Virus record (IMG/VR): IMGVR_UViG_3300030090_002697
Location: 1 to 48,261 of that record
DNA from: a virus
Strand: one strand, 5' to 3'
DNA length: 48,261 nucleotides
Shown: positions 5,591-42,550 of the stretch, in pieces
How positions within the stretch are numbered: position 1 is the first letter of the stretch
How the letters are laid out: every line of letters begins with the position of its first letter
Notes under the pieces: generated by a model
Database searches by the model: none
Told to the model about the DNA's origin: nothing
The model's input: only the letters and a program-made list of their open reading frames with translations
Translations under genes and position numbers: made by a program

Positions 5591-5612
5591 TTTCTTCTTC
5601 CTTATTTTATTA

Positions 5613-5894
5613 TTAACAGTTCCACTTACGTAATGCTTTATTTATCCTGCTATTAGGATCTCTTCTTTTTTTAGCACCTGTAAGTCTTTTTTTCATACCA
5701 GACATTCTAGCACAAAATGATTTACGTCTATTGGCAGCTTTGCTACCTTTCTTTAATTTTGAAGGTTTAGTAGTAACAGCCATCTTTAATTTAGAACCAG
5801 GATTAGCAGCTCTATATGATGCTATACCTTTTCTATTTAATCCACCTGATTTACTTTTACCTGCTTTTCTTTGCCATGCTGGAGATTTAGCCAT
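5613..5894 (-). CDS. DUF6321-like small basic protein (93 aa)
   Basis: The sequence starts SPAWQRKAGKSKSGGLNRKG and ends DPNSRINKALRKWNC, with KRKSFCARMSGMKKR-type basic stretches between. This is the pattern I know as the DUF6321 family of phage proteins. It is very rich in Lys and Arg and keeps cysteines in FCARM and at the C-terminal WNC. The function is unknown. A nucleic-acid-binding or virion-associated role is inferred from charge and from its place in the late unit. It abuts another basic gene: the ATG at 5894 overlaps that gene's end. Confidence 0.75.
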   Translation of the reverse strand: MAKSPAWQRKAGKSKSGGLNRKGIASYRAANPGSKLKMAVTTKPSKLKKGSKAANRRKSFCARMSGMKKRLTGAKKRRDPNSRINKALRKWNC

Positions 5895-6139
5895 TATGCA
5901 TTCCTCACTTTCCTAGCAACATCTTTTGAATATTTTGCTTTTACTCTACCACCTCTACTAGCTGCACGTTTTTTTCTATTCTCTGCAGCTTTTTGACCAG
6001 GAGTTAAACTAGCTCTGACTGATTGGGGTAAATATCTACCTCTTTCAGATTTAGGTTTTTTTTCGTCACCTTTAGAAACATAACCCCATTTTTGTCCTGT
6101 CCATTTTTTTAAAGATTCTTGTGATTTTTTTAAAGCCAT
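5894..6139 (-). CDS. DUF5872-like small basic protein (81 aa)
   Basis: The order KKWTGQKWGYVSKG, RGRYLPQSVRASLTPGQKAA, NRKKRAASRGG matches the DUF5872 pattern (KWT-x-QKW, RYLP, then a basic tail) found in algal-virus and marine phage proteins. It is strongly basic. The role is unknown; nucleic-acid binding is inferred from charge. The start overlaps the stop of the preceding 58-residue gene as TAATG, so the three small basic genes form a coupled group. Confidence 0.75.
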   Translation of the reverse strand: MALKKSQESLKKWTGQKWGYVSKGDEKKPKSERGRYLPQSVRASLTPGQKAAENRKKRAASRGGRVKAKYSKDVARKVRNA

Positions 6140-6824: not shown

Positions 6825-7609
6825 TACTTCCTTTTTTTATTACCATCTATCAACTCTCCCCAAAGTGATGTTCTTCCATTTATCATTTGGATAATATGTA
6901 CCGTAAATAAACCGCCCTTATAAAAATCAACAATGGCAAAAGCATGAGCCCAATTAATTCTTCTATTAGCCAACCACTCATTAGACTTTGGTCCCATATC
7001 TTTTAAACAACCTATACTCCAAGCACTTTTTGGTCCATCCATGTGAGTCATTGACATCTGTTGCAAATCGTGCCAATGCCCATACATTACATTGCATCCA
7101 AGTTTCCGAATATGGTTAGCAGCATGATATTGACCACCATATTGATGACCATGATAAAAGTATAGTTTTCCCATTTTAAGATGTCTCCCGAACTGGTAGT
7201 ATTTGTACCCACGGTCAGCAAGCTTAACAGCAGAAGCAAATCTATACTGAGGAATATAGGGGTATTTCTCAACTGCCATATTAAGCCAATTGTCATGATT
7301 ACCCTCAGTAATATACTTTTCTGTACAATTAACTTTATCAAGACTCTCGTCAAGTTGGTCCATTCCACTGTTAACATCTCTTACATCCCTTTCAAAATCT
7401 TTAATTAGATACTCTAATGGTGGTGCTTTTTTTCTTTTAAATCTCCATGCACTAAATGCATGCCATTCTCCTACATCACCTAAATCTACATAAGCATCAG
7501 GTTTAACTATTTCTATTGTCTGTTTTAGACAATTTATTGCTGGTTGATCATGTAACGGAAAATGTTTATCTGGCGTTACTATGACTCTTTTTACGACTCC
7601 CTTATCCAT
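6824..7609 (-). CDS. Calcineurin-like metallophosphoesterase (261 aa)
   Basis: All the blocks of the calcineurin-like phosphoesterase fold are present in order: D14-x-H16 (TPDKHFP), GD45 in DLGDVGE, G-N104-H105-D106 (EGNHDNW), HGH at 153-155 and GHWH at 177-180. These residues bind the two metal ions. The substrate is unknown; phage members include DNA-repair-type nucleases (SbcD/Mre11-like) and general phosphatases. It lies among lysis and structural genes, not with replication, which is unusual. Base use in this gene is less AT-biased than its neighbours, a possible sign of separate acquisition. Confidence 0.85.
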   Translation of the reverse strand: MDKGVVKRVIVTPDKHFPLHDQPAINCLKQTIEIVKPDAYVDLGDVGEWHAFSAWRFKRKKAPPLEYLIKDFERDVRDVNSGMDQLDESLDKVNCTEKYITEGNHDNWLNMAVEKYPYIPQYRFASAVKLADRGYKYYQFGRHLKMGKLYFYHGHQYGGQYHAANHIRKLGCNVMYGHWHDLQQMSMTHMDGPKSAWSIGCLKDMGPKSNEWLANRRINWAHAFAIVDFYKGGLFTVHIIQMINGRTSLWGELIDGNKKRK

Positions 7610-7624
7610 ACTCCCCCTTTATGT

Positions 7625-7786
7625 TTATTTTTTTAACTCTTTTCTTATAAGAGCTATTTTATAGCCAAAATAAATAATAGTAACAATCCCAACTCCTACA
7701 CGAACCATTTCTGGTAACATATCTAAAAATTGAATTGTTATTCCACCACTACCTATTGCTACTGATTTTAATGTATCTATATCCAT
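7625..7786 (-). CDS. Small membrane protein, holin candidate (53 aa)
   Basis: ATG at 7786 follows the LamG-like gene by a few bases. The product has a weakly hydrophobic N-terminal stretch (SVAIGSGGITIQFLDML) and a clear membrane span (about 28-45, VRVGVGIVTIIYFGYKIALI), ending in RKELKK. Small size, one or two spans and a charged C-terminus are holin features. It is too short for confident family assignment. Confidence 0.6.
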   Translation of the reverse strand: MDIDTLKSVAIGSGGITIQFLDMLPEMVRVGVGIVTIIYFGYKIALIRKELKK

Positions 7787-7792
7787 AATATC

Positions 7793-8542
7793 CTAACTTG
7801 TTGGAACGTCTTCTGAAAACGTATTTGATAATGCTAAACTACTACTATGAGATGTAGCTGCAACTCCTGAAGGGTTCATAAAATTATAAACTTTACTACT
7901 AGTATCAAAAGAATGATTTCCAAAGCTATACCAAAAATAAGGACTATACTTTCTCATATCTTGATGGTTACCTCCATTATAAAAAGAAGCTACATCGCTA
8001 GTTTTATCTGATTTCCAAACTGCCCATTCAAATATTTTGCCACTATAAGCTGAATTATTTCCAGCAAAATTAGCATTATAACCTATAAATCTTTGACTAG
8101 CATCAACATCACTAGCCTCAGTAAAACTAGTGTCACTTATTACTTGGCTTCCATTTAAATAAGCTTTTAAAGTATTTGTTGCATTATTTAAAGATACAAA
8201 TATATGATTCCAAGCTCCTGTAGTACAAGCAGAACTAGCTGTTTTTGCAACATTATTAATTTTAACAATTAAATTTTCACTACCATTTAAATATATCTGT
8301 ATTCCATCAGTAGCTGAATCAGTATGAGAATATATAGGGCTATTTGTACTTTCATTTGTTGGTTTAATCCACGTATGCATAGACCATGTATCTTTATGCC
8401 AAGGATCATCCTTTTCTGAACCTGATGAAATTTGCCAATATATTAAGTCATTTTCAGTATCATCTCCAAAATCTGCTGATTTTGTTGGGCTGTATACATC
8501 TACTGCTCCACCTTTTAAATTTGTTGCGCCTAACCCTAACAT
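7793..8542 (-). CDS. LamG/concanavalin-like structural protein (249 aa)
   Basis: Central residues about 50-190 follow the LamG or pentraxin-like jelly-roll pattern: WSMHTWIKP, a strand GIQIYLNGSENLIVKIN, then WNHIFVSLNNATNTLKAYLN and GKIFEWAVWKSDKTS. In phages such domains occur in proteins that bind host-surface glycans or decorate the virion. The start MLGLGATNLKGG is typical of marine phage structural proteins. It lies just downstream of another presumed surface protein (8544-8885), one base apart. The ligand is unknown. Confidence 0.7.
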   Translation of the reverse strand: MLGLGATNLKGGAVDVYSPTKSADFGDDTENDLIYWQISSGSEKDDPWHKDTWSMHTWIKPTNESTNSPIYSHTDSATDGIQIYLNGSENLIVKINNVAKTASSACTTGAWNHIFVSLNNATNTLKAYLNGSQVISDTSFTEASDVDASQRFIGYNANFAGNNSAYSGKIFEWAVWKSDKTSDVASFYNGGNHQDMRKYSPYFWYSFGNHSFDTSSKVYNFMNPSGVAATSHSSSLALSNTFSEDVPTS

Positions 8543-22797: not shown

Positions 22798-22991
22798 TGG
22801 ATATAGGTAATATTGAAGCAAATACTATCATACTTAAAAAAACTGTTAAATATCTTAATGGTGAAGTAAAAGAAACTGTTGAAAAACAAATAAAAAAAAA
22901 CTACGAACTAATTGATGATTTCTTTGATCAATTAGCAGAAGAATACAAATCAATCCAATCATACGAACAAGGAGGCCCACATGGCAACTAA
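22797..22991 (+). CDS. Hypothetical helical protein overlapping the Ubl gene (64 aa)
   Basis: Helical and charged (ILKKTVKYLNGEVKETVEKQ, ELIDDFFDQLAEEYKSIQSY). The last codons contain the AAGGAGG ribosome site of the following ubiquitin-like gene and overlap it by 11 bases, so the two are translationally coupled. It may be an accessory or substrate of the conjugation cassette, but nothing in the sequence proves this. Confidence 0.55.
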   Translation: MDIGNIEANTIILKKTVKYLNGEVKETVEKQIKKNYELIDDFFDQLAEEYKSIQSYEQGGPHGN

Positions 22992-23199
22992 AACAATAAA
23001 ATTCCTACAAGGTGGCGGCTTTGTAGAGAGACAAACTAACGCTGATACTGTTGAACAATTAAGAGCAGAATTTCCTGACGATATTACTGGTAATGCATCT
23101 GTAGCTGTTAATGGTGTGTCTGTAACAAATACACATGCCATTGAAGAAGGTGATATTGTTGCAGCTGTTAATAATAATAAGTCTGGCGGTGATCAGTAA
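22981..23199 (+). CDS. Ubiquitin-like (ThiS/MoaD-type) beta-grasp protein (72 aa)
   Basis: Size and order of elements fit a beta-grasp protein: strand TKTIKFLQ, turn, strand GFVERQTN, helix TVEQLRAEF, strand ASVAVNGVSVT, then EEGDIVAAVNN and Gly69-Gly70 followed by Asp-Gln. The stretch VAVNGVSV...EEGDIV resembles ThiS and MoaD, where a bare terminal Gly-Gly is adenylated. Here two residues lie beyond Gly-Gly, so trimming would be needed, as in eukaryotic ubiquitin precursors. E2-like, JAMM and E1-like genes follow. I infer a conjugated modifier; a sulfur carrier is the main alternative. It has a strong AAGGAGG site. Confidence 0.75.
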   Translation: MATKTIKFLQGGGFVERQTNADTVEQLRAEFPDDITGNASVAVNGVSVTNTHAIEEGDIVAAVNNNKSGGDQ

Positions 23200-23215
23200 T
23201 TATTAACTTGTAACT

Positions 23216-23297
23216 TATAGGGCTGTAGTGACAGGCGAGTGATAACACAGATGAATAGATATCCAAGTAACACTAACGAGGGTCAATCAGCCCTATA
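23216..23297 (+). promoter_or_regulatory. Stem-closed element between Ubl and E2-like genes
   Basis: TATAGGGCTG (23216-23225) and CAGCCCTATA (23288-23297) are perfect 10-base complements closing 62 bases. A small CTGT/ACAG stem is possible inside. It fills the 121-base gap between the Ubl stop and the E2-like start and ends 23 bases before ATG 23321, ahead of GGAGGG. It might set the ratio of abundant modifier to scarce enzymes by RNA processing or attenuation. Confidence 0.5.
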
Positions 23298-23320
23298 TAA
23301 CATTAACCTTTGGAGGGTAT

Positions 23321-24547
23321 ATGAATTTTAGAGATTATGACTGTATTGTTGATGGCACAATGGAACAATGCATAGAAGAAATTAATGTAGGAGATCTTGA
23401 AGATCACATATATTATGGTCCTCAAGCAGAAATAATGGAAAAACTAACTAGATTTAATACTAGGTATGGTGCAGATTTAGAAGTAACTAAAACATTCAAA
23501 TGGAAACGTGGTTCTTATGATAAAGTAGCTGAACTTATGATGAGAGGTCTTGGTTTTAGAAGAAGACCTAGTGGTATGTACAACTATTTACAAAGAGAAG
23601 AATGGTTTCGAACTCAAACATGGAATAGTATAAAAAATAATTTACGTGATTTAGATGAAACATTGTATAGGTTAAGATGTAATGGTGAAGTATGGCTAGA
23701 TGACCCTGGTGTACTTGTTGAAAGAAAGAACTTGTATTATAATTATCTAATAGAAAAAACTGAAGAAGCTGATAATTTGATAGAGAATATAGATATTATG
23801 AAAGATTTATATCATCAACTATTTGTTCATCCAACATCGCGTTCTAGTAAAAGATATATGTTAGTAACCACACTTCGTATAGCGCCTGATATAATGAAAG
23901 TTTACACAACAAGAGGTAGAGCAAGTGCTGAGCCTGCTAAACATATAGAAAACATAGCTTGTGATACAGATTTGTATATTAATTTCGTATCATATCCTTT
24001 GTTGACTATGACTAGGCACGCTAATTATGACTGCCCATCATTTGATGTAAGTATTCATGGTGAAATTGAACAGCCAGAAGAAAAAGGTTTTTTATCTTTT
24101 CCATATATCTCTGGTAGTAGAAATTATCAAGGTGGATACTTTGGTAACAGTGTTTGCTATGGTGATCAAGCAACTTCAATGTATAATGCAACAAGAAGGT
24201 ATGATCTATCATCTATTGTATTACAATCAATACCTTGGGCTACATCATATACTAATGAAACACAGCCACATAGTAATATTAAACTAATGTATCATGGTGA
24301 ACCTGCTAAACTATCTGAAGAATACAGAAAAATATTTGGCACAAATGACTCAAACTATTGTAATTACGACCCAGATGGCGTAGATGACTATTGTGATAGA
24401 AATGAATGTACTCTTAGACATGATTGTGAAGCGTACAAACTTGCTCATCCTGAACCAGTAACGCCAGAACAGGCTGAACAAATGACATTACAATGGGCAA
24501 CTAGAATGGGTGGTGTTAGAGAATTAATAAACAACGAGGAGGAATAA
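23321..24547 (+). CDS. E2-like ubiquitin-conjugating protein, divergent (408 aa)
   Basis: The C-terminal half contains FPYISGSRNYQGGYFGNSV followed by Cys279-Tyr-Gly-Asp and then a hydrophobic helix (LSSIVLQSIPW). This is the order of prokaryotic E2-like proteins, in which HPH-like residues precede a catalytic Cys in a CxG motif. Cys279 is therefore the candidate for carrying the modifier as a thioester. The N-terminal 200 residues are helical with no known family, larger than a normal E2 core of about 150. The last 70 residues have a cysteine group (NYCNY, DYCDRNECTLRHDCEAY) that may bind zinc. It lies between Ubl and JAMM genes. Fold assignment is by motif and context. Confidence 0.6.
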   Translation: MNFRDYDCIVDGTMEQCIEEINVGDLEDHIYYGPQAEIMEKLTRFNTRYGADLEVTKTFKWKRGSYDKVAELMMRGLGFRRRPSGMYNYLQREEWFRTQTWNSIKNNLRDLDETLYRLRCNGEVWLDDPGVLVERKNLYYNYLIEKTEEADNLIENIDIMKDLYHQLFVHPTSRSSKRYMLVTTLRIAPDIMKVYTTRGRASAEPAKHIENIACDTDLYINFVSYPLLTMTRHANYDCPSFDVSIHGEIEQPEEKGFLSFPYISGSRNYQGGYFGNSVCYGDQATSMYNATRRYDLSSIVLQSIPWATSYTNETQPHSNIKLMYHGEPAKLSEEYRKIFGTNDSNYCNYDPDGVDDYCDRNECTLRHDCEAYKLAHPEPVTPEQAEQMTLQWATRMGGVRELINNEEE

Positions 24548-25516
24548 ATGGAAGTATTAATACATAAAGAATCTTGGGATAAAATTATAAATTATGCTAA
24601 AGCTGCTTATGTTACAGAAAAAGCTGAGATAGGTGGTATGGCAGTAGTAACACAGGATAAAGATGGTGATTGGACTATAGAAAATCCAGTTATATTGCCA
24701 CAAGAGATTGCAGGGACAACATGTGATCTAGATAAAGAACATCTAGCTAAATATTACACGGAGATGGCTATGAAGTATAGTGATCAGGTGTTTAGATTCT
24801 GTTGGTGGCATAGTCATCACACAATGGATGCATTCTGGAGTGGTACAGATTTATCTAGTATTGATGAGTATGGTGAAGGTGATTCAGATGTATCATTTGC
24901 ACTTGTAGTTAATCTAAAAGAAGAATACAAATGCAGAATATCTGTATGGAAACCAGTAGAAATACATGAAGATGTTGATGTTGTTATATTAGATGACAAG
25001 CCTGAAGTAGAAATACCTCTTGAAATAGTTACAGAAGTTAAAGCTAAATGTAGGACAAGATCACTTAGCTCTTATCAAACTGGATTTACTAGACTTCCAT
25101 CTAATGGTAAACAATTGAGTTTAAGTACTTGGTATGATAGTAGAGGTATGAGCCCTCATTATCAGCTATTAGAAGATGATTGTATAGTTAAACAGCCAAC
25201 AGAGTCACAAGCTGCTACATTTGAAGCTAAATGGGAGTATGCTATGGGTAAGATAACTGAGTATGTTAGACAAGTTAATATAGGTCAGTGGACTATGCAT
25301 AAGTTTAAATCGGCAATTACACATACTAATAAACACTTAGAACCATATGGTTTAGAAATAGACAAACTAAACAAAAAAGAATTACAAGAGTTTGTTAGTA
25401 TGGATGGTGAACCTTATGAACTAATAAATGTTATTGACAACAAGTATCAAGAAATAGCTGAATCTTTAATAGATGCTGCATGTTATAACAAAACATATGG
25501 AGGTACATGGGTATGA
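24548..25516 (+). CDS. JAMM/JAB metalloprotease, deubiquitinase-like (322 aa)
   Basis: A complete zinc-protease signature is present: Glu27 (AEIGGM), His88-Ser-His90, then Ser98 and Asp101 (HSHHTMDAFWSGTD), the E...HxHx7SxxD pattern. Such enzymes cut after Gly-Gly of ubiquitin-like proteins or free conjugates. The Ubl gene here ends GGDQ, so trimming of Asp-Gln is the natural job. Residues 150-322 form an extra domain with no recognised family (FTRLPSNGKQLSLSTWYDSR, MGKITEYVRQVNIGQWTMHK), perhaps binding partner proteins. It starts one base after the E2-like stop and overlaps the E1-like start. Confidence 0.85.
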   Translation: MEVLIHKESWDKIINYAKAAYVTEKAEIGGMAVVTQDKDGDWTIENPVILPQEIAGTTCDLDKEHLAKYYTEMAMKYSDQVFRFCWWHSHHTMDAFWSGTDLSSIDEYGEGDSDVSFALVVNLKEEYKCRISVWKPVEIHEDVDVVILDDKPEVEIPLEIVTEVKAKCRTRSLSSYQTGFTRLPSNGKQLSLSTWYDSRGMSPHYQLLEDDCIVKQPTESQAATFEAKWEYAMGKITEYVRQVNIGQWTMHKFKSAITHTNKHLEPYGLEIDKLNKKELQEFVSMDGEPYELINVIDNKYQEIAESLIDAACYNKTYGGTWV

Positions 25517-26166
25517 TAAACACAAGAAGTCAAGATATTGCAAATATATCAGGTATTAACTTTCACATTGTAGGTTGCGGGGCTATTGGGAGCTCCGTAG
25601 CCATGCAATTAGCAAGACTTGGAGCTAATCAATTTTATTTATATGATTTTGATAAAGTTGGTATAGAAAATGTAGGCGTAAGTCAATATGTGAATGAAGA
25701 TGTTGGTAAAAGTAAAGTTCAAGCATTACGTTCTCATCTTTGGAGCATAGATGATAGCATAATAAGTGATATTACTATTGATAAATTTAAATATTATGAA
25801 GGTAATAAAGATGATATACTTGTATTAGGTTTAGACAGTATGTCTGCACGTATGGAAGTAGTTAAATTATTAGCAAAATGCCCTAATAAACCATCATTTG
25901 TGATAGATGGTAGGATGGGTGCAGAACAATATCAACAATACATATATGATAATATTACTGTAAGTAAATACACTAAAGATTGGTATTCTGATGAAGATTC
26001 TGATCCTGAACCATGCACTCGTAAAGCTACATCTTACTGTAGTAATATGAGTGGTAGTTTTATTTCTAATTCTATTAAGAACATAGTTATGAAACAACCA
26101 TACTTCAAAGAAATTATTTTTAATTTTTCAACAATGATACTTGATAAAAAGAAATTAATTTCGTAA
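25513..26166 (+). CDS. E1/ThiF-like adenylating enzyme (217 aa)
   Basis: A Rossmann-type ATP site reads IVGCGAIGSS (residues 19-28), followed by YLYDFDKVGIENV with Asp45 and Asp47, Asn53, Gln58 and DVGKSK (Lys66, Lys68), all conserved in E1/ThiF/MoeB enzymes. The Arg usually next to Gln is Ser here. Cys168 in PCTRKATSYC is the candidate thioester cysteine and Cys176 lies nearby. It should adenylate the Ubl C-terminus. ATG 25513 is chosen over 25507: it is 9 bases after GGAGG and overlaps the JAMM stop as ATGA. At 217 residues it is short for the family. Confidence 0.85.
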   Translation: MINTRSQDIANISGINFHIVGCGAIGSSVAMQLARLGANQFYLYDFDKVGIENVGVSQYVNEDVGKSKVQALRSHLWSIDDSIISDITIDKFKYYEGNKDDILVLGLDSMSARMEVVKLLAKCPNKPSFVIDGRMGAEQYQQYIYDNITVSKYTKDWYSDEDSDPEPCTRKATSYCSNMSGSFISNSIKNIVMKQPYFKEIIFNFSTMILDKKKLIS

Positions 26167-30504: not shown

Positions 30505-33419
30505 TATTTCCTATCTAAGTCTCTCATTAATTGATCTAATTTATAACTACCTGTATCGTATCTTTTATTTTTCTTTTTATTTTTTAAAAAGTAATCCCCA
30601 TAACCTTTTACTTTTCTTCGTTTAAAAAATGGTATACCAGGTAAATTTAATCCAAGTAATTCTTTATCATCACCTATCCAATTTTTAGTATTTTTAATCC
30701 AAGGTGCAGGATAAGCTGCAAAAGTATGTCTAACTAAATCCATGCCTCTATTACCACGAACAGATGGTATTGCTTTATTAGCCATAAATCCAGCAAAAGT
30801 TCCTAATCTATTCCAAAAAGCTCTATCTCTTGCTGCTCCATCTTCACTTTCAAGCAATCTATCGTATCCAAAAAACATTCTAGATAGTTCACTATCAGGA
30901 ATATCCATCATATTTGATGCTTGTAAACCAAATATAATATCATCTACAATAGGACCAGTATAATCTCCGATAATACCATAATATCCTTTAGCATTATCTT
31001 TTAACGATCCATCAGGATTAAGTTCATCATCGTCTGGTCCAGCAATATTTCTATAAAGATTTTTTACTTTTTCAATAGTATCGTTTTCAAATATTCTAAA
31101 TAAATCAGCATTTAATAAAACAGATATACCTGCTATAAATCCAGTCAATGCTGCATTATTTACAGCATATTTTATTTCAGGTGAATCCCATTGTTTTGCT
31201 GCAACTGAATGACCTATTCCTTCTACCATTTTATATTGCATATCAGCAAAAAACATAGGATAATGTAATAAAGCAGTAGCCATAGATGTGCCACTAGTCA
31301 AACCTACTTCTATTTTGTTTTTAATTTTACCATCTATAGTTACTTTACCAGGAGATCCAGTTAAAAGTCTTGATTTAGAATGTAATGCATATTCACCAGC
31401 CATTTGATTTACAGCAAATAAAGCTGTATTAGCAGCATCTTTAACCATTTTATTAGACATAGGCTTTTTCATATTTATAGAATTACCATTATGTTTACTC
31501 CAATATTCTGGATGTGACCTATATATTTCCATAGCTTGTACAAAAGCTTGTTTAAACATAAAGTTTCTAGTTATATTTTCACCTTTTTGATGAAAGTATA
31601 ATAATCTATTAGGAATATTTTGAAAAAATTTAGATACAGGATTACTTAACATAAACTCGTTAACAGAAACATATCCATTTTTAGATCTTTTATTTATAAC
31701 TTCAATCTGTCCTGATTCTAAGTTGTATTTAAAATCTAAAAGCTCTGTTCCTTCTTTAGTTAAAACACCTTCAGCAGCAAGTTCTTGACCAATATTTAAA
31801 TCATCTCCAAATTTAAATCCTTGTATTCTTGACACAGCATCAGTTAATGCTTGGTAAGTAATTGCTCCATCAGTATCATGTTTTAAAGTACCATTTTTAT
31901 AAATATTATTATGTTTTTTGATATTAAATAATCCTATTTTAGATAAAAAGAAACCTGCAGAAGCTACGTTTCTAACAGCACCAGTTAATCCAAACCCCAT
32001 AGCTTTAAGAGTTTGAAATATATTTATTGATCTAACAGTTTTATTAAGCCATTCAGGTCTATTCTGCAATCCTTTAGTAGATATAACAAACTGGTCATCA
32101 ACAAAATCTGTAAGACCTTTTAAATATTCTATATTAATTTTAGGATCTTTTAAAGCTTTAGTAACTCTCATATATTCTTTTGCTATTGAATTTAATTTAT
32201 TAAACTGTATAGCTTGAGCTCCATATTGTTCTAATATATAAAATGGATTTTGAGATGTTCTTCTTTCTAAAAGTTCATTTTTTGATTTTACATTAGCTGG
32301 CATATCAGATTTTAACATATTTTGTAAATTTTCTGATAAATCTTCTGTTTTTCTTTTTATACCTTCAAAGGATGATTCATTCATAGTTTCATTAAATTTA
32401 GCTTTTAATTTCATAACATCATCTAATAATATTTGTGGAAAATAACCACCTTCTTTTATACCAATTTTAATTCTATTTATAGCATCTTCTACGTTTTTAT
32501 CAAGAGATCTAAGTATTCTATCTCTAGCCATGACAGATGCTTTAGTATCATTGTATTCACTATTAGTATTTTTAAGCCACAACCCTTCTCTTAAGAATCT
32601 TAGTGCCTGTATATTCACTTCACCCATTTTATTTAAATATTGTCTACCTTTATCAACTGCATCTACAATATGTCTATTATAAGCTGTACCATATCTATTT
32701 TGATCTTCTTCTATTTTTCTTCCATATTTTTGGCCTCTAATACCTTCTTTTATAGCTTTTTTGTATTCAGCTGGAGTTAAACTTATAAGTGTATTAAAAT
32801 CTCTTATAAAACCTCCTTTATCGCTTCTTACTATTTTTTCAATTTTTTGTTGAGTCTTAAAGATAAATGATGGATCTTCAGAATATTTTACTTCATTTTC
32901 ATATTTTTGTATTTTTTTAAGAACAGGTAATTTATTAAAAAACCCAGAGTTCATACCTAATTCTATATAACCTTTTCTAATACTTTTTAAAATTTCTTTC
33001 ATAAATATAGCTTGTTCTGCTATTTTGTTTCTTTCATAACTTTTAGCCTGATCTAAGTTATTTTGAAATCTTTTAGTAGCAGGAGTTTTTCTCATTGCAG
33101 CGTTAGGTATTCTAAAAATTGAACCTAATTTAGTTAAAGGTTTATTTAATTGTCTATCATGTTGCTTAACTGTATTTTGAAATCTTTTTACTTGACTATC
33201 TTTTAAAATAAAAGCATCATCTAATCTTAATGATTCATCTTGCATTTTTAATATTTCTTGCATTTCTCTTACAGCTGAATTATTATCATTAATATCCTCT
33301 ACTTTACCATACATACTAGTAAGCATCTCAGAGCTATTATAAGCTTTAATCATTTTTTCAATACGAACTTTATTGTCTAACACTTCTTGTGTAACTGTTA
33401 TATTATTGCAAGCTGTCAT
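30504..33419 (-). CDS. Large internal virion/ejection protein (971 aa)
   Basis: The protein is helical and charged over residues 1-400 (ESLRLDDAFILKDSQVKRFQ, KNELLERRTSQNPFYILEQY). It has hydrophobic amphipathic stretches in the second half, such as LKAMGFGLTGAVRNVASAGF, TSMATALLHYPMFFADMQYK and ALTGFIAGISVLLNADLF. The latter could cross or insert into membranes. It lies directly downstream of the giant polymerase-like gene (TAATG overlap), at the end of the leftward unit. In podoviruses such large helical proteins sit inside the head and enter the cell before DNA. The role is inferred from layout and composition; no family name is offered. Confidence 0.5.
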   Translation of the reverse strand: MTACNNITVTQEVLDNKVRIEKMIKAYNSSEMLTSMYGKVEDINDNNSAVREMQEILKMQDESLRLDDAFILKDSQVKRFQNTVKQHDRQLNKPLTKLGSIFRIPNAAMRKTPATKRFQNNLDQAKSYERNKIAEQAIFMKEILKSIRKGYIELGMNSGFFNKLPVLKKIQKYENEVKYSEDPSFIFKTQQKIEKIVRSDKGGFIRDFNTLISLTPAEYKKAIKEGIRGQKYGRKIEEDQNRYGTAYNRHIVDAVDKGRQYLNKMGEVNIQALRFLREGLWLKNTNSEYNDTKASVMARDRILRSLDKNVEDAINRIKIGIKEGGYFPQILLDDVMKLKAKFNETMNESSFEGIKRKTEDLSENLQNMLKSDMPANVKSKNELLERRTSQNPFYILEQYGAQAIQFNKLNSIAKEYMRVTKALKDPKINIEYLKGLTDFVDDQFVISTKGLQNRPEWLNKTVRSINIFQTLKAMGFGLTGAVRNVASAGFFLSKIGLFNIKKHNNIYKNGTLKHDTDGAITYQALTDAVSRIQGFKFGDDLNIGQELAAEGVLTKEGTELLDFKYNLESGQIEVINKRSKNGYVSVNEFMLSNPVSKFFQNIPNRLLYFHQKGENITRNFMFKQAFVQAMEIYRSHPEYWSKHNGNSINMKKPMSNKMVKDAANTALFAVNQMAGEYALHSKSRLLTGSPGKVTIDGKIKNKIEVGLTSGTSMATALLHYPMFFADMQYKMVEGIGHSVAAKQWDSPEIKYAVNNAALTGFIAGISVLLNADLFRIFENDTIEKVKNLYRNIAGPDDDELNPDGSLKDNAKGYYGIIGDYTGPIVDDIIFGLQASNMMDIPDSELSRMFFGYDRLLESEDGAARDRAFWNRLGTFAGFMANKAIPSVRGNRGMDLVRHTFAAYPAPWIKNTKNWIGDDKELLGLNLPGIPFFKRRKVKGYGDYFLKNKKKNKRYDTGSYKLDQLMRDLDRK

Positions 33420-36400
33420 TATTTACACCCACTATTATTTTCTTTTCTTTTACTTCTAAAATATCTAATCTTTTTACCTTTTGTTGTAGCTTTAGAATAT
33501 ACACCATCAGAATAATTTCTACTATTATAAACATTAGCAAATGCTGGATCAAAATATCCATAATCTGCAAACAATGATTTTGAAAAATCTAAATCTGAAT
33601 CTCTAAATAAATCATCCACATTATCAGATGAAGCTTTAAAGTAAACATCTGTTAAATGATGTAGATAAGCGTCTTCATGAGATAATCCATTCATAATATC
33701 AGCTTGTCTTCTTTGTTCGCCTATTATATATTCTAATTTTTCTGGCATATTATTAGGCTTTAATACATTATTATCACTTAAAAATTTATACACAGCAGAT
33801 TGAAGTCTAGGGCTAGAATAAACATAAGGTAAATCAGTCATAGGACCTTTTACAAAAGACCCACTTAATGGTCTAGGATTTAATAGCAATAATGCTAAAT
33901 CAATTGTAGGATCATTTTCACCTAATCTTAAATTACCATCTTTATCAAATGAATTATATTTTTTAAACAGTTCTGTAATAACTATTTGATCATTAAGACC
34001 AGAGTAAGCATAAGCATCCGATTTTTCTTGTATATTTTCTTTGCTATGTTTTCTAGCAAATTGATAATTATCATTAATTTTATCCATGACATTTGCAACA
34101 TCATCATAAAGCCTATCTATCTGTCTATCTGTTTTTACAATATTATCTATATTTTTAACATTATCTATTGCTAACCATAAAGCTTGATTTTGAACAACTT
34201 CATTAGGACCTAAAAACTTTTCTATTAATGGTTTAGTAAGCTCAATATATGTTCTATTAGATCTCATTTTGTAAGAATCACTAGCTTTAGGATTAAAGTT
34301 ACCATGATAAGTTAATTGTGAAAAATCTTGATTCATAATATCAGCTACATCTATTCTGCCTGAAAAACTATAAACATTAACTGGTTGTCTTACTTTCTTT
34401 ACAAAATTATTAATATTATTTTTATATACTCTTACTGTACCTTTTTTATCATTTAACAAGTTTTTCATTGCAAGTTTATCTAATATTTGCAATGCACTTT
34501 CTACATCTCTTAATCTAGATGATAATATATCATAATCATATTCATTTACTTTGTATTGAGAACCATCCATTTTACCTATTTCAACAGATAGACTTGATGC
34601 TTCTTTTGTAAGTAAATGATAAACAGCAGATCTCATATTTACATTTTGAAAACTAAACTTATTATTAGTTTCTTTTGCATCTAAAACAGCAAAATCTAAA
34701 ACATCAGGTGCCTCTTGATCAGAAAACAAAGTTTTAACAGGATCTGAATTAGGATAGAATGTTTTGTATATAGCTATACTATTCATAAAGTTAGTTTTTC
34801 TTGCTCTTACAGTTGCTAAATCAATCTTAAATTGTTTAGAATTTAATTGACCATAAAAATCTACATCTTTTAATAATTCTTTTTCTCTAATTTTTTGTAA
34901 AGCATACCCTTCATCTGCTAATGTTAATGCTTTTATTGGGTTATCATAACCTGATTTAGTTATATTACCTGCATTTTTAAGAGTAATAAGTTTGTTTATA
35001 ACTCTAGGAGGTCTTCCAGAAAAGTAATCCTGTATTTTTGATGCATCTAATATCGGTTCTGCAGTTCTGCCTTCAGTATAAAATGTTTTAATAATTTCTT
35101 GCATCATATCTGGTTTATTAGAAAATCTTTTAATAAGTTCATCAGCAACATATTGATTTGGATTTCTTAACATATCAAGTAAATTATCATATATTTCACC
35201 TAAATAATAGTCTGTTGGAGTAAATTGACCACCTTCATTAAATGGATCGTTAAAAACAGACTTAGCTTTATTTAGTGTACCTAGCATTATATTAGCTATT
35301 TCTTGATTTAATAATCCAGAATTAATAGTATTAGGGTCGTCAGTCTTAAATTTTTTATATGCACCTTCTATAGAGCCTGGTATTTCAATTCCTAATTTAG
35401 ATAATTTTTCTTTTATTTGTGGATTAACATCACCAAATATAGTAGCTCTTCTTAACACATTTGTAAGATCAGTTTGAAAATGTTTGTCAACTGCATTTTG
35501 ATTTATATCTGCTTGAGCTCTTGCAGATAAAGATTCAAAACTTTCTAACCCTTTTTTAATCATATCAATATCTGATACATTTACAAACTTAGCTTTAGAA
35601 TTATCTTTAAAATTAAATTCAATACCTATATTACTAGCCCAATTCAAAGTATTTTTTAATGAAATTGTTTCACCAATAGCATATTCGTTTCTATTGATTT
35701 GATTTTTTAATGTACTAAATCCTATGTCTTGTGGTATTTTACCAAATTTTCCATCTTGATTCATACCAAATATATTATTATTAAAAGCATATCTTGGAAG
35801 CTGTCTATAATCTTCTATAGTACCTAATTTTTTAATAGATTCATTTATAAATCTAGATGGCATACCTAAATAATGAAACCCATGATCTCCATCAAAATCT
35901 CTTTGATGCATAACTCTTAAATCATAATTGTTAATAATAGTATGATTACCCATATCTTCAGTCAAAAATGAACGTATTCTATTAAAACCAACATCAAGGC
36001 TTTTCTTTGGTATAGCGATTGATACAACACCTAAATTAATTTTATATTTATTTTTTAAATTATCTAATGATTTGCTCACAACATTTTCAATAACAGGGAA
36101 TCCTTGGTTATCTTTAACTATTCTGTTATGACTGTTTTGTGTTATAAGATTATGTATGCCTTCAAAAGTAGCAACAGTTTTATTTATACGCGTACTTGTC
36201 AATGTTTCTTCAACGTATTTTCTTAATTCTTGTAAATCTTTCATTAAAGCTTTATCAGATCTTATACTATTAATTTTTAAATTGTTACCATCAAATGTAG
36301 TTCTGTATGTTTTATCATTAACTACATCAAACATAGCATCAGTAACATCTATATCATTTTTAACAAATCTTATTCTTACATCTCTTCCTTCGTGTTGTAT

Positions 36401-39400
36401 AATAAAATCTAAATCTTCTATACTTGAAACATTTCTTTTTCCTAAATGTTTTGGTAAAGATACATCACCGAAATTAGTTGCTATTCTAGAATTAACAACA
36501 GATTCAGTTTCAGTTATATCTTTTGAAAAGTTTTCAAGTTCAGCAAATATAGTTGGATTGTGATCGTTAAATAAATCAGGAATTAAATATGTATCAGCAC
36601 CTTTTGATGTCATATTTCTTCTAACACTATCAAATATCTTGCCTCTAAATAAAGTTTTTAATTGATTCTTAATAGCAGTATTGTTAGTAGACATACCAGC
36701 ATTTAAAAGTTCTTGAGCAAATCCATAACTACCATCACTAAAATCATAACCTGTATCATCTTCCATCTCTCTCATCATTGTTAATATTAACTGAGGGTCA
36801 TCTAATTTATCAAAATCTATTTTTCTAGCTACTAATTCATCAATAGTTTTATCTAAGCCTTTATATTTTCTTATATCTTTAACAATATCAGCAGCAAGAA
36901 AATCATTTAAAGAATTAGAAACCATAACTTTGTCACCCTGTTTAGCCATATGTCCTAATCCTATAGAAGAAAAAGGTATTTCTATTATTCCGTCTCTATT
37001 TCCTGAGCTTCTTGTAAGTAAATTATCTACAAAACTTAAACCAGGATTTAATTTAAATGCAGACAATGGTTTTTCGTTTGCATCTAATCCATAAAATGCT
37101 TTAGCTGCACTTTCACCAACAATCATATCAACATCGTCTAAGTTTGGTATTTTTGATATAGCATCATTATAATGAAAATAACCTTTTATAACTAATCCTT
37201 GTGCACTTTCAGTCATAAATCCATCTGCAAATGCAGTATTAGCTTTAATACCATTACCATTTTCGTTACCAAATGTAGATCCTAAAACTTTTCTTAAATC
37301 ATTATTTACAATAGTAACAGCCCCATCTATTACAGAACTATGTAAGCTTTCAATTTTTTTACCATCCATAATTTTTGCTTTAAATTTATCTGCATATGGA
37401 CTATCTGATTGATCTAATTTAGCTACAACAGCATCTCTATTAGACATTAAATCTGTTTTAGTAAATACACCAGAATTAAAATCTTTTTCCCAAGCTTGAT
37501 CTGATACAACTAAAACTTTCAGTTTTTTATTTTTAAAGGTATTAAACAGATTTTTTGTTTCTTGACTAACACCATTATATCTTGTAATTAAATCTAAATA
37601 ATTATCATTTATATAATCATAGTTTTTATTTATAGTTTGATTAGTAACTTTAAGAAGCTTTTGAGCCATTTCATCAAATAAAGCATCTCTGTTGTTTGAT
37701 TTATAGACATCATCAGTAAAGAAATTATCAAACTTATTAGCTAAACTAATATCTAAATTCATTTGCAACATTTTAATAGCAACGTCAGCAGAAGAATTAC
37801 CTATATCTTGAGTAGCGTAATCAAAATTCATTTGTAATCTTTTGTCTTTTAATTCTAATTGTATTAATTTATTTTCTCTCCATCGAGCATAAAAATCATT
37901 TACTCTATCTATATTTTCTTTTGTTAAAGGAACTGCAATGGGAGCGCCATTAGTCATATCAAGTACAGTAAATAATCTTTCTGATTGTTGATTTTTTATA
38001 GCATCAGTGATAACATCTTCAATATCTAATGTTTCTGAAGTAAATATCTTTTCTGCTAGTGTAGGATCAACATGAACTCTTTCAGCTAACATATTTTCTA
38101 AATCTCTTTTGGTAAAATTAGCAGCATTAATTGTTGTTTTTCTACTATTGTTCTCTGCCATCTGATTTATTTGAATTACATCTAATCCTATCATTTTCAT
38201 TAAAGGTGAATTAATGCCAGCTAATGTTCTTCTTCCAGGCACATTATCTTCAACAACTATACTATTATCTTTAACTGTAAATGTTGTTATAGGTTCATCA
38301 AGAGAACTTACGTATCTAACTAAATTTGGTAACTGTAATGCAAAGTCTTCAAGGTCTTTACGTAAATTTACCGCGTCATTGCCGTTTTTAGACAATAATT
38401 TGTTTTGAACATATGCTTCTAAGGCTAAAACCTTTTGTTGCCTAATATCATCTATTATAGCAGTTTTTTCATTTTCAGGCAAATCATCTCTTTTAAATTC
38501 ATTTTGTTTTTCAACACTATATTTTGAATTTATATATGTTTGTATATCTCCATCAGGTATTTCAACTAATGTGTTTACAATAAGCTCAACAGCTTCTTGA
38601 TCAATTTTATTAGGATTATTAATATCAGTTAAGTTAAACTTTTTAATAAGCTTCATTGGACTATTATTATCATTATGAGAAGCATTTTTATTAACTAATT
38701 CTTTTACATTTCTAATACTTTCTGTTAAATCATTATTATACTTTGTTATGTTAACCTTACTCATAGATTGTATATTTATATTGTCTATTATTCTGTTTAA
38801 ATCATATGAGCTTCTAGTTTTTTTGTAATCATTAATAAGTTCAGTCAAAGAAAATTTATTGTATTCAGTAACACCCATTACTCTTGCTAGTTCTTTTTGC
38901 AGTGTATCAGCCTTACGTAAGAACATACCTCTTGTAGAAAAATCATTACCTAAACTCATAATTGAGGAAATTAATTTTCTAGTTCTCAAATCTTGATAAG
39001 TATCAAACTTTACAATATTTTCAATAATGTCACCAATATCTTGAATAACAGGACTAGCATCAACTGACATAAATTGATTCTTTTTATAAGCATCTCTAAC
39101 TATATCTAATGATATTTGTAATTCAGAAATTTGTTTTTCTAATCCATTTAATCCATTATGACCAGCAACTTTAGTTCTTAATCTATTTAAAAATACTTCA
39201 ACAGAATTATTAAATTCATTTAATATATCAGAGTTTTTTGTAATACCTTGATCTGCTAATCTTCCAGCACTTTCCATAAAAGTATTTACTATATCTATTA
39301 TACCACCGCCAATATCTCTAACATCTTTATATTTCTGATCATTAACAATAGTTTCTCTAATATTAGAAAGGCTATCCATAATTTTATTAAAGTTACCTAT

Positions 39401-42400
39401 ATTGGTCATTTCATACAAAAAGTCAATATTTTTAATATCTGATAAAGCTATATTATCTGCTGGTATTTCTCCACTTGGTTTTATTGCTGGATGTTTAGAT
39501 ATTTTATTAAATACTTTTGTATACTTTTGTATAGACTTATCTACTTCTCCACCAGGCCCTTGTGAATAACCCTTTTCTATTAAATGTAATCTAAGAGCAT
39601 CTGGTGTAATTAAACTTTTATCTTTTAAATCAAAAACACCTGCATCTTTAGCAGCAGTTACAATAGCTAAATCTTCTTCAGTAAACTTTTCAGATTGTAA
39701 TGTTCTTTTTAATACGTAATCAGCTAAGTTTGTATTAAAGTCTAATCCTTCAAATAAATTTTTTGGTATTATATAATTTAACTTTGAATATTCTTTTATT
39801 AAAAGATCAGCTTCACTTTCTGTTATTTTATTTTTATACTCTGGTGACGCTTTTTTCTCAAGGTTTCCAGCACTCATAAAATCAAATAAAGTATTTATCT
39901 TTGTTTGCAATTCTGCTAAATCATTTTCTTTTCTTAAAAGTTTATCACCTTCTAAATTGCTAAACTTAACTTCATCACTTGGTATAACTTCAGGAGCATT
40001 CTTAATCATAGTACCAGTATCATCACCTTGACCTGATTGTTTTGTATATCTAGAATTAATAGTAAACATTTTATGAGCTAATTCAACAAAGTTTTGTTCT
40101 AGAGCAGTTAATCCCTCTTCTCCACCTTTTGAATTTGCTAATTTATAAGCCATATCCATATTTTCATACATTTTGCCTGCAACAGTAGCTTGTAAATAAG
40201 GATTGTTTACTGTACCAAAAAAGTTATCTATTCTAAGAGCAGAGTTATTGCCATGTATATTCTTTACTATTTGACTTATTGTTGTTTCAGCAATATCATC
40301 AATTGTTTTAGCTACATCTACTTTAGATTCATCACCTTTTATAACAATCTTTTTATTATTGCCTGAACCTATTTCTTGGAAAATTATTGATTTATCTCCA
40401 ATTTTAGAAGTAGCATAACCTAAATCACTAAACATTTCTAAAAGTTTGTAAAATTTATTTATACTATGATTATAATTACCATCTACTGTAAAATCAATAT
40501 TGCCAGGTAAGTTTACAATGTCATAATGTATTTTACCATCTTTTGCAACATTAATATTCAAGTTTGGAATTTTGTCTTGAATAATTTGAATCATTCTAAA
40601 ATAATAATTTTTATTAGATTCTCCTAGCTCTCTCATTGTATTATTTAATAAATCACCTATAGGTATTTCAGTTAACTTAGTATCACCTATTCTTAAATTA
40701 GATAATTCATTATATATTTGCTCAATACGAGCAACAGGTAAATCTCTTGCATTAATATCTTGTACTTTATACGGGTTTGCAACTTCTGCTCTATGCATTT
40801 GATTTGCTAAATTAACAGCTTCACTTACTTTTTGAACAACAGTATGATCTAAGCTTTCAAATGTTCTATTATCATCTTTTACAGTAGAATTTAAAATAAT
40901 ATCATTTGGTTTTATAATATCATATATAGCATTTCCTATTGGAGTTTGCCTTGTTGTTAAATTCATTAAATCACCTATTCTTCTATTTGATGAATACACA
41001 TCAATAAAAGATTCTAAATTCTTAGAGTCTAAATTTAAATAACTAAATGCTTCTTGATAGTTTTGAAAATCTTTTGCCCATTGCGAAGGTTCTGTATCTC
41101 TATCCCACAAACCTCTACTTTTAGTCATAAATGCACCAATCATCATATGTTGTGCTAACTCTGGATAAGTCAAGTCTTCAAATTTATTATTAACCCATAA
41201 ATCTATATTCATAACCATAGATCCTGCTAACATTCTTGGACCAGAACCAATTAAATCTTTAATATACTCTTTACCAAACTGACCAAATTTATTAACTGTA
41301 AATAACTTATATTGCTCTAAAAGATCAATAACATCATCAATTGGCATAGAATCTGCTTGTTGCAATATTTCATTAGGAGAGTATGTTTTACCTGCATTTT
41401 TACCTGTTCTAATTTTCCAATTTTGACCTTGAAATCTTGAAACATTTATTATATTATTATCAGCACCTCTTGTCATTAAATGCAGTAATCCTCTAACATT
41501 TTTTTCACCATTAGGTTTACCAGCCATTTTAGCATAATTAAATCTATCTAAACCTTTTCTTAATGCTGCTTTATTTTTCATTATTTCAAAACCTTGCGAC
41601 AATTGAGTAGCACCTTTGCTACCTAATCCAGGTATATTACCAAAAAATCTAACACCAGGGAATAGAGCTGCTTGAACAGCATTTATACCAAATTGTTCTG
41701 CAATAGCATTTCCACTTATTTTATCGCCATAAAGAGCATTACCTACACTTGTTGTAATTAATTGATGACCAGCAAATACAGCTACATCTTGAGCAGCCAT
41801 ACCCATATATTTAGCTGGCAATCCTTTTAAAAATGGTGCACTTCTTGCTAAGCCTTGTTCTACCCAATCTTCAAAATTGTTTACATGTCTTCCTGGTTTT
41901 CTTAATTCTTTAGCTAAATTATTTGCTATATTTCTAGATATATTAGGATCAATAGTTCTACCAGCATTTTTAAATGAAGCTCTAAGACCTGCATCCATAT
42001 TGTTAATCATCATTCTCTCTACAGTTTCCATCTGTTTATCACTAAAACCATATCTATTTAATGTTTGAGCTACAGTTGGATTTTTAAATAATTCTTTTTG
42101 TATAGTTTTTTCTAAAAATGCTTTGTCTGTTTTACCAATATGTTTTGCTACATTATCTGCTTTAATTCCTTTAATTATATTTTGACTACTTTTAGCAGCA
42201 AATCTACCTGTAGCTTTATTTATACCTTTACCTAAAAGAGCAAAAGGTCCTTTAGGGCTTATATAAGATAATGCAGACCCAAATCCTCTACCCATACGTT
42301 GAGCAAGATTCATTTTATTATAATCACGTTTCCCAAGTCTAACAGCACCAAAAGTATATCCTTCTGCTGCACCACCAAAAGCAGAACCTAAAAAGTCTCC

Positions 42401-42550
42401 AACATTACCAGTTTTATAATAATCTACACTTCTTTCATTATAACCAGATATATCGTCATCAATTAATGATGAAAAACCAATTTGTGAATGTGAATCATAA
42501 CCATGAAGTATTTTGGCGTCTTGTATATAATCTTGAAAAGTATTACTCAT
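33419..42550 (-). CDS. Giant protein with RNA polymerase double-psi barrel motif; candidate virion RNA polymerase (3,043 aa)
   Basis: Residues 2218-2222 are Asp-Phe-Asp-Gly-Asp in MHQRDFDGDHGFHY, the Mg-binding DxDGD of the beta'-type double-psi barrel. The preceding stretch (VVSIAIPKKSLDVGFNRIRS, then a turn, strand and HQR) matches the barrel order seen before that motif in beta'. About 280 residues earlier DFSDGSYGFAQELLNAG (1936-1952) and two lysines (1965, 1971) suggest the first barrel. The N-terminus (SAFGGAAEGYTFGAVRLGKR, FGSALSYISPKGPFALLGKG) and the rest are helical and of unknown family. crAss-like phages have giant virion polymerases with this motif. It adjoins presumed ejection proteins, fitting co-injection. 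Confidence 0.6.
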   Translation of the reverse strand: MSNTFQDYIQDAKILHGYDSHSQIGFSSLIDDDISGYNERSVDYYKTGNVGDFLGSAFGGAAEGYTFGAVRLGKRDYNKMNLAQRMGRGFGSALSYISPKGPFALLGKGINKATGRFAAKSSQNIIKGIKADNVAKHIGKTDKAFLEKTIQKELFKNPTVAQTLNRYGFSDKQMETVERMMINNMDAGLRASFKNAGRTIDPNISRNIANNLAKELRKPGRHVNNFEDWVEQGLARSAPFLKGLPAKYMGMAAQDVAVFAGHQLITTSVGNALYGDKISGNAIAEQFGINAVQAALFPGVRFFGNIPGLGSKGATQLSQGFEIMKNKAALRKGLDRFNYAKMAGKPNGEKNVRGLLHLMTRGADNNIINVSRFQGQNWKIRTGKNAGKTYSPNEILQQADSMPIDDVIDLLEQYKLFTVNKFGQFGKEYIKDLIGSGPRMLAGSMVMNIDLWVNNKFEDLTYPELAQHMMIGAFMTKSRGLWDRDTEPSQWAKDFQNYQEAFSYLNLDSKNLESFIDVYSSNRRIGDLMNLTTRQTPIGNAIYDIIKPNDIILNSTVKDDNRTFESLDHTVVQKVSEAVNLANQMHRAEVANPYKVQDINARDLPVARIEQIYNELSNLRIGDTKLTEIPIGDLLNNTMRELGESNKNYYFRMIQIIQDKIPNLNINVAKDGKIHYDIVNLPGNIDFTVDGNYNHSINKFYKLLEMFSDLGYATSKIGDKSIIFQEIGSGNNKKIVIKGDESKVDVAKTIDDIAETTISQIVKNIHGNNSALRIDNFFGTVNNPYLQATVAGKMYENMDMAYKLANSKGGEEGLTALEQNFVELAHKMFTINSRYTKQSGQGDDTGTMIKNAPEVIPSDEVKFSNLEGDKLLRKENDLAELQTKINTLFDFMSAGNLEKKASPEYKNKITESEADLLIKEYSKLNYIIPKNLFEGLDFNTNLADYVLKRTLQSEKFTEEDLAIVTAAKDAGVFDLKDKSLITPDALRLHLIEKGYSQGPGGEVDKSIQKYTKVFNKISKHPAIKPSGEIPADNIALSDIKNIDFLYEMTNIGNFNKIMDSLSNIRETIVNDQKYKDVRDIGGGIIDIVNTFMESAGRLADQGITKNSDILNEFNNSVEVFLNRLRTKVAGHNGLNGLEKQISELQISLDIVRDAYKKNQFMSVDASPVIQDIGDIIENIVKFDTYQDLRTRKLISSIMSLGNDFSTRGMFLRKADTLQKELARVMGVTEYNKFSLTELINDYKKTRSSYDLNRIIDNINIQSMSKVNITKYNNDLTESIRNVKELVNKNASHNDNNSPMKLIKKFNLTDINNPNKIDQEAVELIVNTLVEIPDGDIQTYINSKYSVEKQNEFKRDDLPENEKTAIIDDIRQQKVLALEAYVQNKLLSKNGNDAVNLRKDLEDFALQLPNLVRYVSSLDEPITTFTVKDNSIVVEDNVPGRRTLAGINSPLMKMIGLDVIQINQMAENNSRKTTINAANFTKRDLENMLAERVHVDPTLAEKIFTSETLDIEDVITDAIKNQQSERLFTVLDMTNGAPIAVPLTKENIDRVNDFYARWRENKLIQLELKDKRLQMNFDYATQDIGNSSADVAIKMLQMNLDISLANKFDNFFTDDVYKSNNRDALFDEMAQKLLKVTNQTINKNYDYINDNYLDLITRYNGVSQETKNLFNTFKNKKLKVLVVSDQAWEKDFNSGVFTKTDLMSNRDAVVAKLDQSDSPYADKFKAKIMDGKKIESLHSSVIDGAVTIVNNDLRKVLGSTFGNENGNGIKANTAFADGFMTESAQGLVIKGYFHYNDAISKIPNLDDVDMIVGESAAKAFYGLDANEKPLSAFKLNPGLSFVDNLLTRSSGNRDGIIEIPFSSIGLGHMAKQGDKVMVSNSLNDFLAADIVKDIRKYKGLDKTIDELVARKIDFDKLDDPQLILTMMREMEDDTGYDFSDGSYGFAQELLNAGMSTNNTAIKNQLKTLFRGKIFDSVRRNMTSKGADTYLIPDLFNDHNPTIFAELENFSKDITETESVVNSRIATNFGDVSLPKHLGKRNVSSIEDLDFIIQHEGRDVRIRFVKNDIDVTDAMFDVVNDKTYRTTFDGNNLKINSIRSDKALMKDLQELRKYVEETLTSTRINKTVATFEGIHNLITQNSHNRIVKDNQGFPVIENVVSKSLDNLKNKYKINLGVVSIAIPKKSLDVGFNRIRSFLTEDMGNHTIINNYDLRVMHQRDFDGDHGFHYLGMPSRFINESIKKLGTIEDYRQLPRYAFNNNIFGMNQDGKFGKIPQDIGFSTLKNQINRNEYAIGETISLKNTLNWASNIGIEFNFKDNSKAKFVNVSDIDMIKKGLESFESLSARAQADINQNAVDKHFQTDLTNVLRRATIFGDVNPQIKEKLSKLGIEIPGSIEGAYKKFKTDDPNTINSGLLNQEIANIMLGTLNKAKSVFNDPFNEGGQFTPTDYYLGEIYDNLLDMLRNPNQYVADELIKRFSNKPDMMQEIIKTFYTEGRTAEPILDASKIQDYFSGRPPRVINKLITLKNAGNITKSGYDNPIKALTLADEGYALQKIREKELLKDVDFYGQLNSKQFKIDLATVRARKTNFMNSIAIYKTFYPNSDPVKTLFSDQEAPDVLDFAVLDAKETNNKFSFQNVNMRSAVYHLLTKEASSLSVEIGKMDGSQYKVNEYDYDILSSRLRDVESALQILDKLAMKNLLNDKKGTVRVYKNNINNFVKKVRQPVNVYSFSGRIDVADIMNQDFSQLTYHGNFNPKASDSYKMRSNRTYIELTKPLIEKFLGPNEVVQNQALWLAIDNVKNIDNIVKTDRQIDRLYDDVANVMDKINDNYQFARKHSKENIQEKSDAYAYSGLNDQIVITELFKKYNSFDKDGNLRLGENDPTIDLALLLLNPRPLSGSFVKGPMTDLPYVYSSPRLQSAVYKFLSDNNVLKPNNMPEKLEYIIGEQRRQADIMNGLSHEDAYLHHLTDVYFKASSDNVDDLFRDSDLDFSKSLFADYGYFDPAFANVYNSRNYSDGVYSKATTKGKKIRYFRSKRKENNSGCK

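Follow-up and report, generated by a model that had tools for sequence, protein, structure and literature searches.

The virus record IMGVR_UViG_3300030090_002697 of IMG/VR, analysed over its whole length of 48,261 bases and called the window here, carries a cassette of four head-to-tail genes at positions 22981-26166 on the plus strand. They encode a ubiquitin-like protein (Ubl), a 408-residue protein termed X, a protease of the JAMM/JAB type and an enzyme of the ThiF/E1 type. In a podovirus-like lineage of about 55 kb, the cassette belongs to the core genes, and it probably constitutes a phage-owned cycle of Ubl conjugation and deconjugation. With somewhat less assurance, we lean towards the broader view that at least two unrelated groups of phages, namely this lineage and the gut Crassvirales, have kept the Ubl system by vertical descent as a core component of their replication programme, in which it would act on host or phage proteins and not as a bacterial anti-phage system. 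Bacterial Ubl-conjugation operons have been discussed chiefly in connection with defence against phages or as orphan cassettes, and no account of a phage or crAss Ubl-E1-E2-JAMM cassette was found in the open-access literature searched (subscription papers and preprints lay outside the scope). Judged by that literature, what appears to be new is the core phage cassette common to the uncultured lineage and Crassvirales; Ubl-conjugation operons themselves are known in bacteria.

Conservation of the cassette in the phage lineage

The E1 gene was found on more than 400 IMG/VR contigs. In all 60 loci that hold the four genes (51 distinct X sequences), these follow the same order on one strand, and the catalytic residues are invariant across divergent relatives, so the cassette is not a product of chance. 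A first-pass annotation of the window, made by reading the letters only, had given correct coordinates, strand, motifs and residue numbers for the four open reading frames (ORFs), i.e. the GGDQ end of Ubl, FPYI...CYGD in X, E27/H88/H90/S98/D101 in the protease and GCGAIGSS in E1. Its remark that there is no close phage counterpart was wrong, as close counterparts do exist in phages. Some loci of the lineage have additional genes between Ubl and X or between X and JAMM; in locus L024, a gene with a CxxxCxxC motif (radical-SAM-like; 7274-8221) lies between the X and JAMM genes.

Core status was assessed on 17 long contigs (38-104 kb) that were picked by terminase alone, which avoids selection by the cassette; these are metagenomic records whose completeness is not established. 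E1 and X were present on 15 of the 17 contigs and Ubl on 16, which identifies the cassette as core to the lineage. On contig G262, Ubl lies at the extreme edge and the remaining cassette genes may lie beyond the contig, and the 43.6-kb record G266 was the sole one among the 17 without any cassette gene. The earlier proposal that a phage uses the system for its own ends is strengthened by these counts, as the cassette is not the cargo of one phage. By portal or terminase, the nearest cultured phages are distant (about 21–31% identity), so the lineage is uncultured within the collection compared. Two contigs, G249 (104 kb) and G250 (85 kb), carry two portal genes each with about 60–85% identity to that of the window, possibly representing two genomes or a chimeric assembly.

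Related cassettes in Crassvirales and Flavobacterium phage FpV4

In the isolated crAss-like phages crAss001 (gp79-gp76), DAC15, Kolpuevirus and relatives, as well as in FpV4, the primase is followed by a Ubl-like gene, a gene for a Cys protein, and the JAMM and ThiF genes, in this order. Under their present labels ('metalloprotease domain', 'thiamine biosynthesis protein' or hypothetical), these genes have gone unrecognised as a cassette. FpV4 has a gene for uracil-DNA glycosylase between the primase and the Ubl-like gene. The E1 of these phages is about 30% identical to that of the window and has motifs in common with it, their JAMM is homologous, and the gp79 N-terminus in Crassvirales is Ubl-like with KSGA or KSGG. 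The Cys protein at the position of X shows a weak fold link to X. When the X model was compared with viral models by Foldseek, six close relatives were followed by weak crAss-like and podovirus matches (probability 0.80–0.98, template modelling score about 0.2–0.27), among them a 435-residue cr128_1 protein with the size of the gene adjoining its JAMM and a 420-residue protein with the size of the FpV4 counterpart. Their length and organism suggest that both are products of the gene at the X position. Crassvirales are a separate phage lineage, and their Ubl differs in being fused to a C-terminal extension. The cr106_1 protein at the Ubl position has no Ubl-like N-terminus, and one member of the alignment of crAss Ubl-like proteins, identified by its sequence as that of cr126_1 (L018, 2269-3195), matched the C-terminal domain of ribosomal L7/L12 (E=5e-12).

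Ubl, protease and E1

The first-pass identification of Ubl, JAMM and E1 is supported by family matches, the Ubl model, profile matches and conserved residues; for X, the fourth member, the assignment is backed indirectly and is weighed further below. The best Pfam family for Ubl in a single-sequence search was ThiS (E=0.0025, below the cut-off), which also matched 26 of 42 Ubl relatives at E up to 0.5, the best at 9.5e-5. An AlphaFold2 model from an alignment of 42 sequences (predicted local distance difference test score, pLDDT, 83) has the strand-strand-helix-strand-strand order of a beta-grasp and a flexible tail. Foldseek against the PDB placed the archaeal ubiquitin of Caldiarchaeum first (E=4e-4), followed by ubiquitin, MoaD and SUMO. 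The fold suspected at first reading is therefore the one predicted. All 50 family members carry K-[T/S/V]-G-G near the C-terminus, and in the window the mature end would be G70, with the two-residue tail DQ removed. Of the 50, 42 continue for 1 to 60 residues past the Gly-Gly and eight stop exactly at GG. The loci of these eight all retain a JAMM whose HxH-x7-SxxD motif is intact, and the protease must therefore do more than trim.

The protease matched Prok-JAB at 8.5e-5, just under the Pfam cut-off; its profile matches an Rpn11-like protein and CSN5, and its five signature residues are present in all 78 sequences. E1 matched Pfam ThiF clearly (E=1.3e-15; 57.7 bits against a cut-off of 28.1), and a profile of E1 with its phage relatives had UBA5 as best PDB match, with MccB and UBA6 also matched. 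The Gly-loop, DxD, N55, K70, D110, D134 and R136 are invariant among 80 E1 sequences including those of crAss-like phages, and C170 is conserved in crAss-like phages and in planctomycetal E1s as well.

Proposed conjugation cycle

The proposed cycle draws on general knowledge of E1-E2-Ubl chemistry, of the JAMM zinc site and of the HPN-Cys arrangement of E2s. JAMM would cut the precursor KSGG-DQ back to its Gly-Gly end. The ThiF-fold E1 would adenylate this end with ATP and hold Ubl as a thioester, probably at Cys170, from where Ubl would be transferred to Cys279 of X, whose four-Cys module may help in target choice. X would then join Ubl to a protein of the host or the phage, and JAMM would strip it off again.

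Protein X as candidate E2

X is the most variable of the four proteins (352–738 residues among the loci listed, about 20% identity between branches), and in locus L036 a stop codon divides it into two ORFs (4586-5644 and 5653-6078). The X family keeps one W and one P besides the residues listed in Table 1. C279 sits about 18 residues past the [FHY]-P-[YF]-I motif, which lacks the Asn of HPN. The AlphaFold2 model comprises a long helical or coiled N-terminal part, a beta-meander at residues 160–250, the FPYI/C279 segment and helices, and this predicted helix/meander/Cys/helix order fits an E2.

A further link comes from cellular genomes. A scan for the E1 in 84,980 bacterial and archaeal genomes gave four loci only. 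Two of these (L115 and L116) look, by their gene content, like crAss-like phage contigs binned in metagenome-assembled genomes of Spirochaetia, and the other two belong to Planctomycetota and have the order Ubl, a protein with HPHV...LCEGDG and a Cys-rich tail, JAMM and E1. Of the 246 genomes of the phylum that were searched, 7 have the gene for this E2-like protein, and of the 18 E2-like sequences collected, 17 are preceded by a Ubl-like ORF and followed by a JAMM-like motif (planctomycetal set L113, L114 and L117-L134; Ubls for the profile were gathered by the string 'RVNR'). Single genomes can hold several copies, with five in G001 and six in G240. Across the HPxI...C...Y segment, the planctomycetal E2-like profile aligned to that of X at 70–77% (P about 2–4e-5) with 16–18 sequences, the link being weak (17.5%) with two sequences, and the planctomycetal and phage Ubl profiles aligned at 93% (P 4e-7). 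About 45 profile controls, reversed profiles included, all stayed below 7% but one: in hhalign, the Ubl profile scored 69% against its own reversal, so P-values on such short profiles are rough. The planctomycetal Ubl scored 0.13% when the phage Ubl was reversed.

Several results weigh against X as an E2 and the cycle built on it. Searches of Pfam, NCBIfam, PADLOC and PHROG gave no family for X, no E2 was matched among PDB sequences, and Foldseek of its model against the PDB returned no E2 (best E 0.7). The planctomycetal protein matched no E2 model and is itself an E2 by inference only, and the sequence profiles of X and the crAss gp78 family showed no link with either 8 or 50 sequences. For E1, C170 is a candidate thioester cysteine named from conservation alone. 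The profiles of X, of its planctomycetal counterpart and of gp78 did not match two eukaryotic E2s or Cap2 N-termini either; with profiles this thin the failure was expected and was weighed neither way. Thus, the term E2-like from the first-pass annotation is carried by the HP[YF]I...C-x-G motif, the topology, the operon position and the planctomycetal profile link, whereas the suggested profile search against E2 families and the structural search of the PDB gave no E2.

These failed searches, together with the variability of X in length and sequence, would suit an arrangement in which Ubl, E1 and JAMM cooperate but X is a scaffold, a substrate or some other Cys enzyme that receives Ubl, and in which E1 may load Ubl straight onto X or other proteins without an E2. 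We regard this as unlikely, as C279 is invariant behind HP[YF]I in an E2-compatible topology, X holds the E2 place in the operon, and its profile is linked to the planctomycetal HPHV...LCEGDG protein.

Other possible roles

Instead of conjugating Ubl, the E1 might prepare it as a thiocarboxylate, comparable to ThiS and MoaD, for modification of RNA, DNA or a metabolite of the phage or the host, with JAMM processing the carrier. ThiS being the top Ubl family and the ThiF type of the E1 would agree with such sulfur transfer, JAB proteins occur in some sulfur-transfer operons (PMC1779556), and host enzymes could still provide the sulfur. However, rhodanese and cysteine desulfurase were found in none of 14 phage records (controls were positive in 13 and 14 of 14), which makes this role less likely, no ThiG- or MoaE-like partner was present among the scanned ORFs, a conserved extra Cys protein always lies between Ubl and JAMM, and the TIGR02356 and TIGR01682 scores are far under the cut-off. 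A sulfur carrier is therefore rather improbable. Even less credit is given to phage-carried defence or superinfection exclusion by Bil-like tagging of the structural proteins of rival phages, which would share four roles and their order with Bil (PMC11354881), but is made less likely by a cassette that is core, not sporadic, and joined to ERF and a replicative helicase, not to a cargo region, and whose single-domain Ubl and E1 are unlike BilA and BilD, with PADLOC blank for Ubl and X.

If the conjugation cycle holds true, phages use ubiquitin-style tagging within their own infection programme. Phage-host pairs in which the function of the cassette can be tested already exist, as relatives occur in crAss001, DAC15 and FpV4, for which laboratory hosts are named (Bacteroides intestinalis for crAss001, Flavobacterium psychrophilum for FpV4). 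Moreover, diverse minimal four-gene systems become available for studying the origin of cascades of E1, E2, Ubl and deubiquitinase (DUB).

Features and gene neighbourhood

Table 1. Positions of cassette genes, motifs and candidate functional residues in the window
Feature	Position	Strand	Basis
Ubl, 72 residues, predicted ubiquitin-like beta-grasp modifier, C-terminus ...NNNKSGG-DQ	22981..23199	+	AlphaFold2 model, Foldseek, KxGG
KSGG motif of Ubl, residues 67-70	23179..23190	+	K67, G69, G70 invariant
X, 408 residues, E2-like candidate	23321..24547	+	AlphaFold2 pLDDT 86; profile link to planctomycetal protein
FPYI of X, residues 260-263 (family H/F/Y-P-Y/F-I), placed like the E2 HPN motif	24098..24109	+	P 57/58, I 52/58
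Cys279 of X (C-x-G-D), proposed Ubl-thioester cysteine	24155..24157	+	Cys in 58/58
Four-Cys module of X (C347, C358, C363, C369), possible Zn or Fe-S site	24359..24427	+	kept in 52-56 of 58
JAMM/JAB metalloprotease, 322 residues	24548..25516	+	Prok-JAB and PADLOC JAB matches, profile matches, conserved zinc site
Catalytic Glu27 of JAMM	24626..24628	+	conservation
JAMM motif H-S-H-x(7)-S-x-x-D, residues 88-101	24809..24850	+	conservation
E1-like ThiF-fold adenylyltransferase, 219 residues	25507..26166	+	Pfam ThiF, profile matches
Nucleotide-binding loop GCGAIGSS of E1	25573..25596	+	G23, G25 in 80/80
Lys70 of E1, ATP-site residue	25714..25716	+	80/80
Cys170 of E1, candidate thioester cysteine	26014..26016	+	79/80

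The last 10 bases of the JAMM gene are shared with E1, the X and JAMM genes abut, and 121 bases separate Ubl from X. Small ORFs lie 5' of the cassette. On its 3' side follow an ERF single-strand annealing protein, a 173-residue protein with no family assigned (its label 'SSB-like' comes from position alone), a helicase of the DnaB type that includes a primase-like part, and a PD-(D/E)XK nuclease. Promoter and terminator scans yielded little above chance. On the minus strand, at 33419-42550, the window has an ORF of 3043 residues without a PHROG match and with a DFDGD motif, which resembles that of the giant RNA polymerases found in crAss-like virions.

Comparison with known systems

The closest parallel drawn at first reading was Bil, in which Ubl, E2, DUB and E1 roles follow in order, BilA is a homologue of ISG15 and BilD has two adenylation domains and a Cys domain (PMC11354881). 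The likeness in gene order holds in 60 of 60 loci, X being taken in the E2 role. Membership does not hold, as the window has a single 72-residue Ubl domain and a single 219-residue E1 domain and its genes are phage core. Identity with Bil was rejected, since the features of neither an ISG15-like BilA nor a two-domain BilD are present.

PRTRC systems likewise bring ThiF, JAB, Ubl and E2-like parts together on mobile elements. Against NCBIfam, the window scored 11.4 bits for PRTRC_A (cut-off 101.8) and its E1 26.7 for PRTRC_ThiF (cut-off 144.75). The models of PRTRC B and C gave no match, no PRTRC model matched Ubl or X, and there was no match to Prok-E2_D. With all PRTRC models far under cut-off and partners B and C not found, this identity was discarded.

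Type II CBASS (cyclic oligonucleotide-based anti-phage signalling system) shares the E1 and JAB families through Cap2 and Cap3, and the plasmid neighbourhoods of E1 matches that were inspected are mostly Cap2. The E1 of the window differs as a separate 219-residue gene without E2 fusion, and no CD-NTase or nucleotidyltransferase match was present among the scanned ORFs neighbouring the cassette. Assignment to CBASS type II was rejected on both grounds. An E1 tree sets Cap2 apart with support 89/76, its branches being long and its deep splits not relied on. PADLOC gave generic JAB and E1-E2 matches only for JAMM and E1.

Older Ubl operon types have been described (PMC1779556). Among them, TAPI-TAPK of lambda/T1 tail assembly combines a phage Ubl and a JAB in one neighbourhood (PMC1779556), but without E1 or E2 and in a tail module, whereas the cassette here belongs to a replication module.

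The Planctomycetota loci have the four roles and order of the phage cassette. Their E1 is about 27% identical, their Ubl starts with GGGF/GxGF and has a K-x-x-G end as in the phage Ubl, and their HPHV...LCEGDG aligns with the phage HPYIS...VCxGD. In contrast to the phage cassette, this version is cellular, its E2-like protein has a long zinc-finger-like Cys-rich tail instead of a single four-Cys module, and its Ubl ends in G-A or similar where the phage Ubl has GG.

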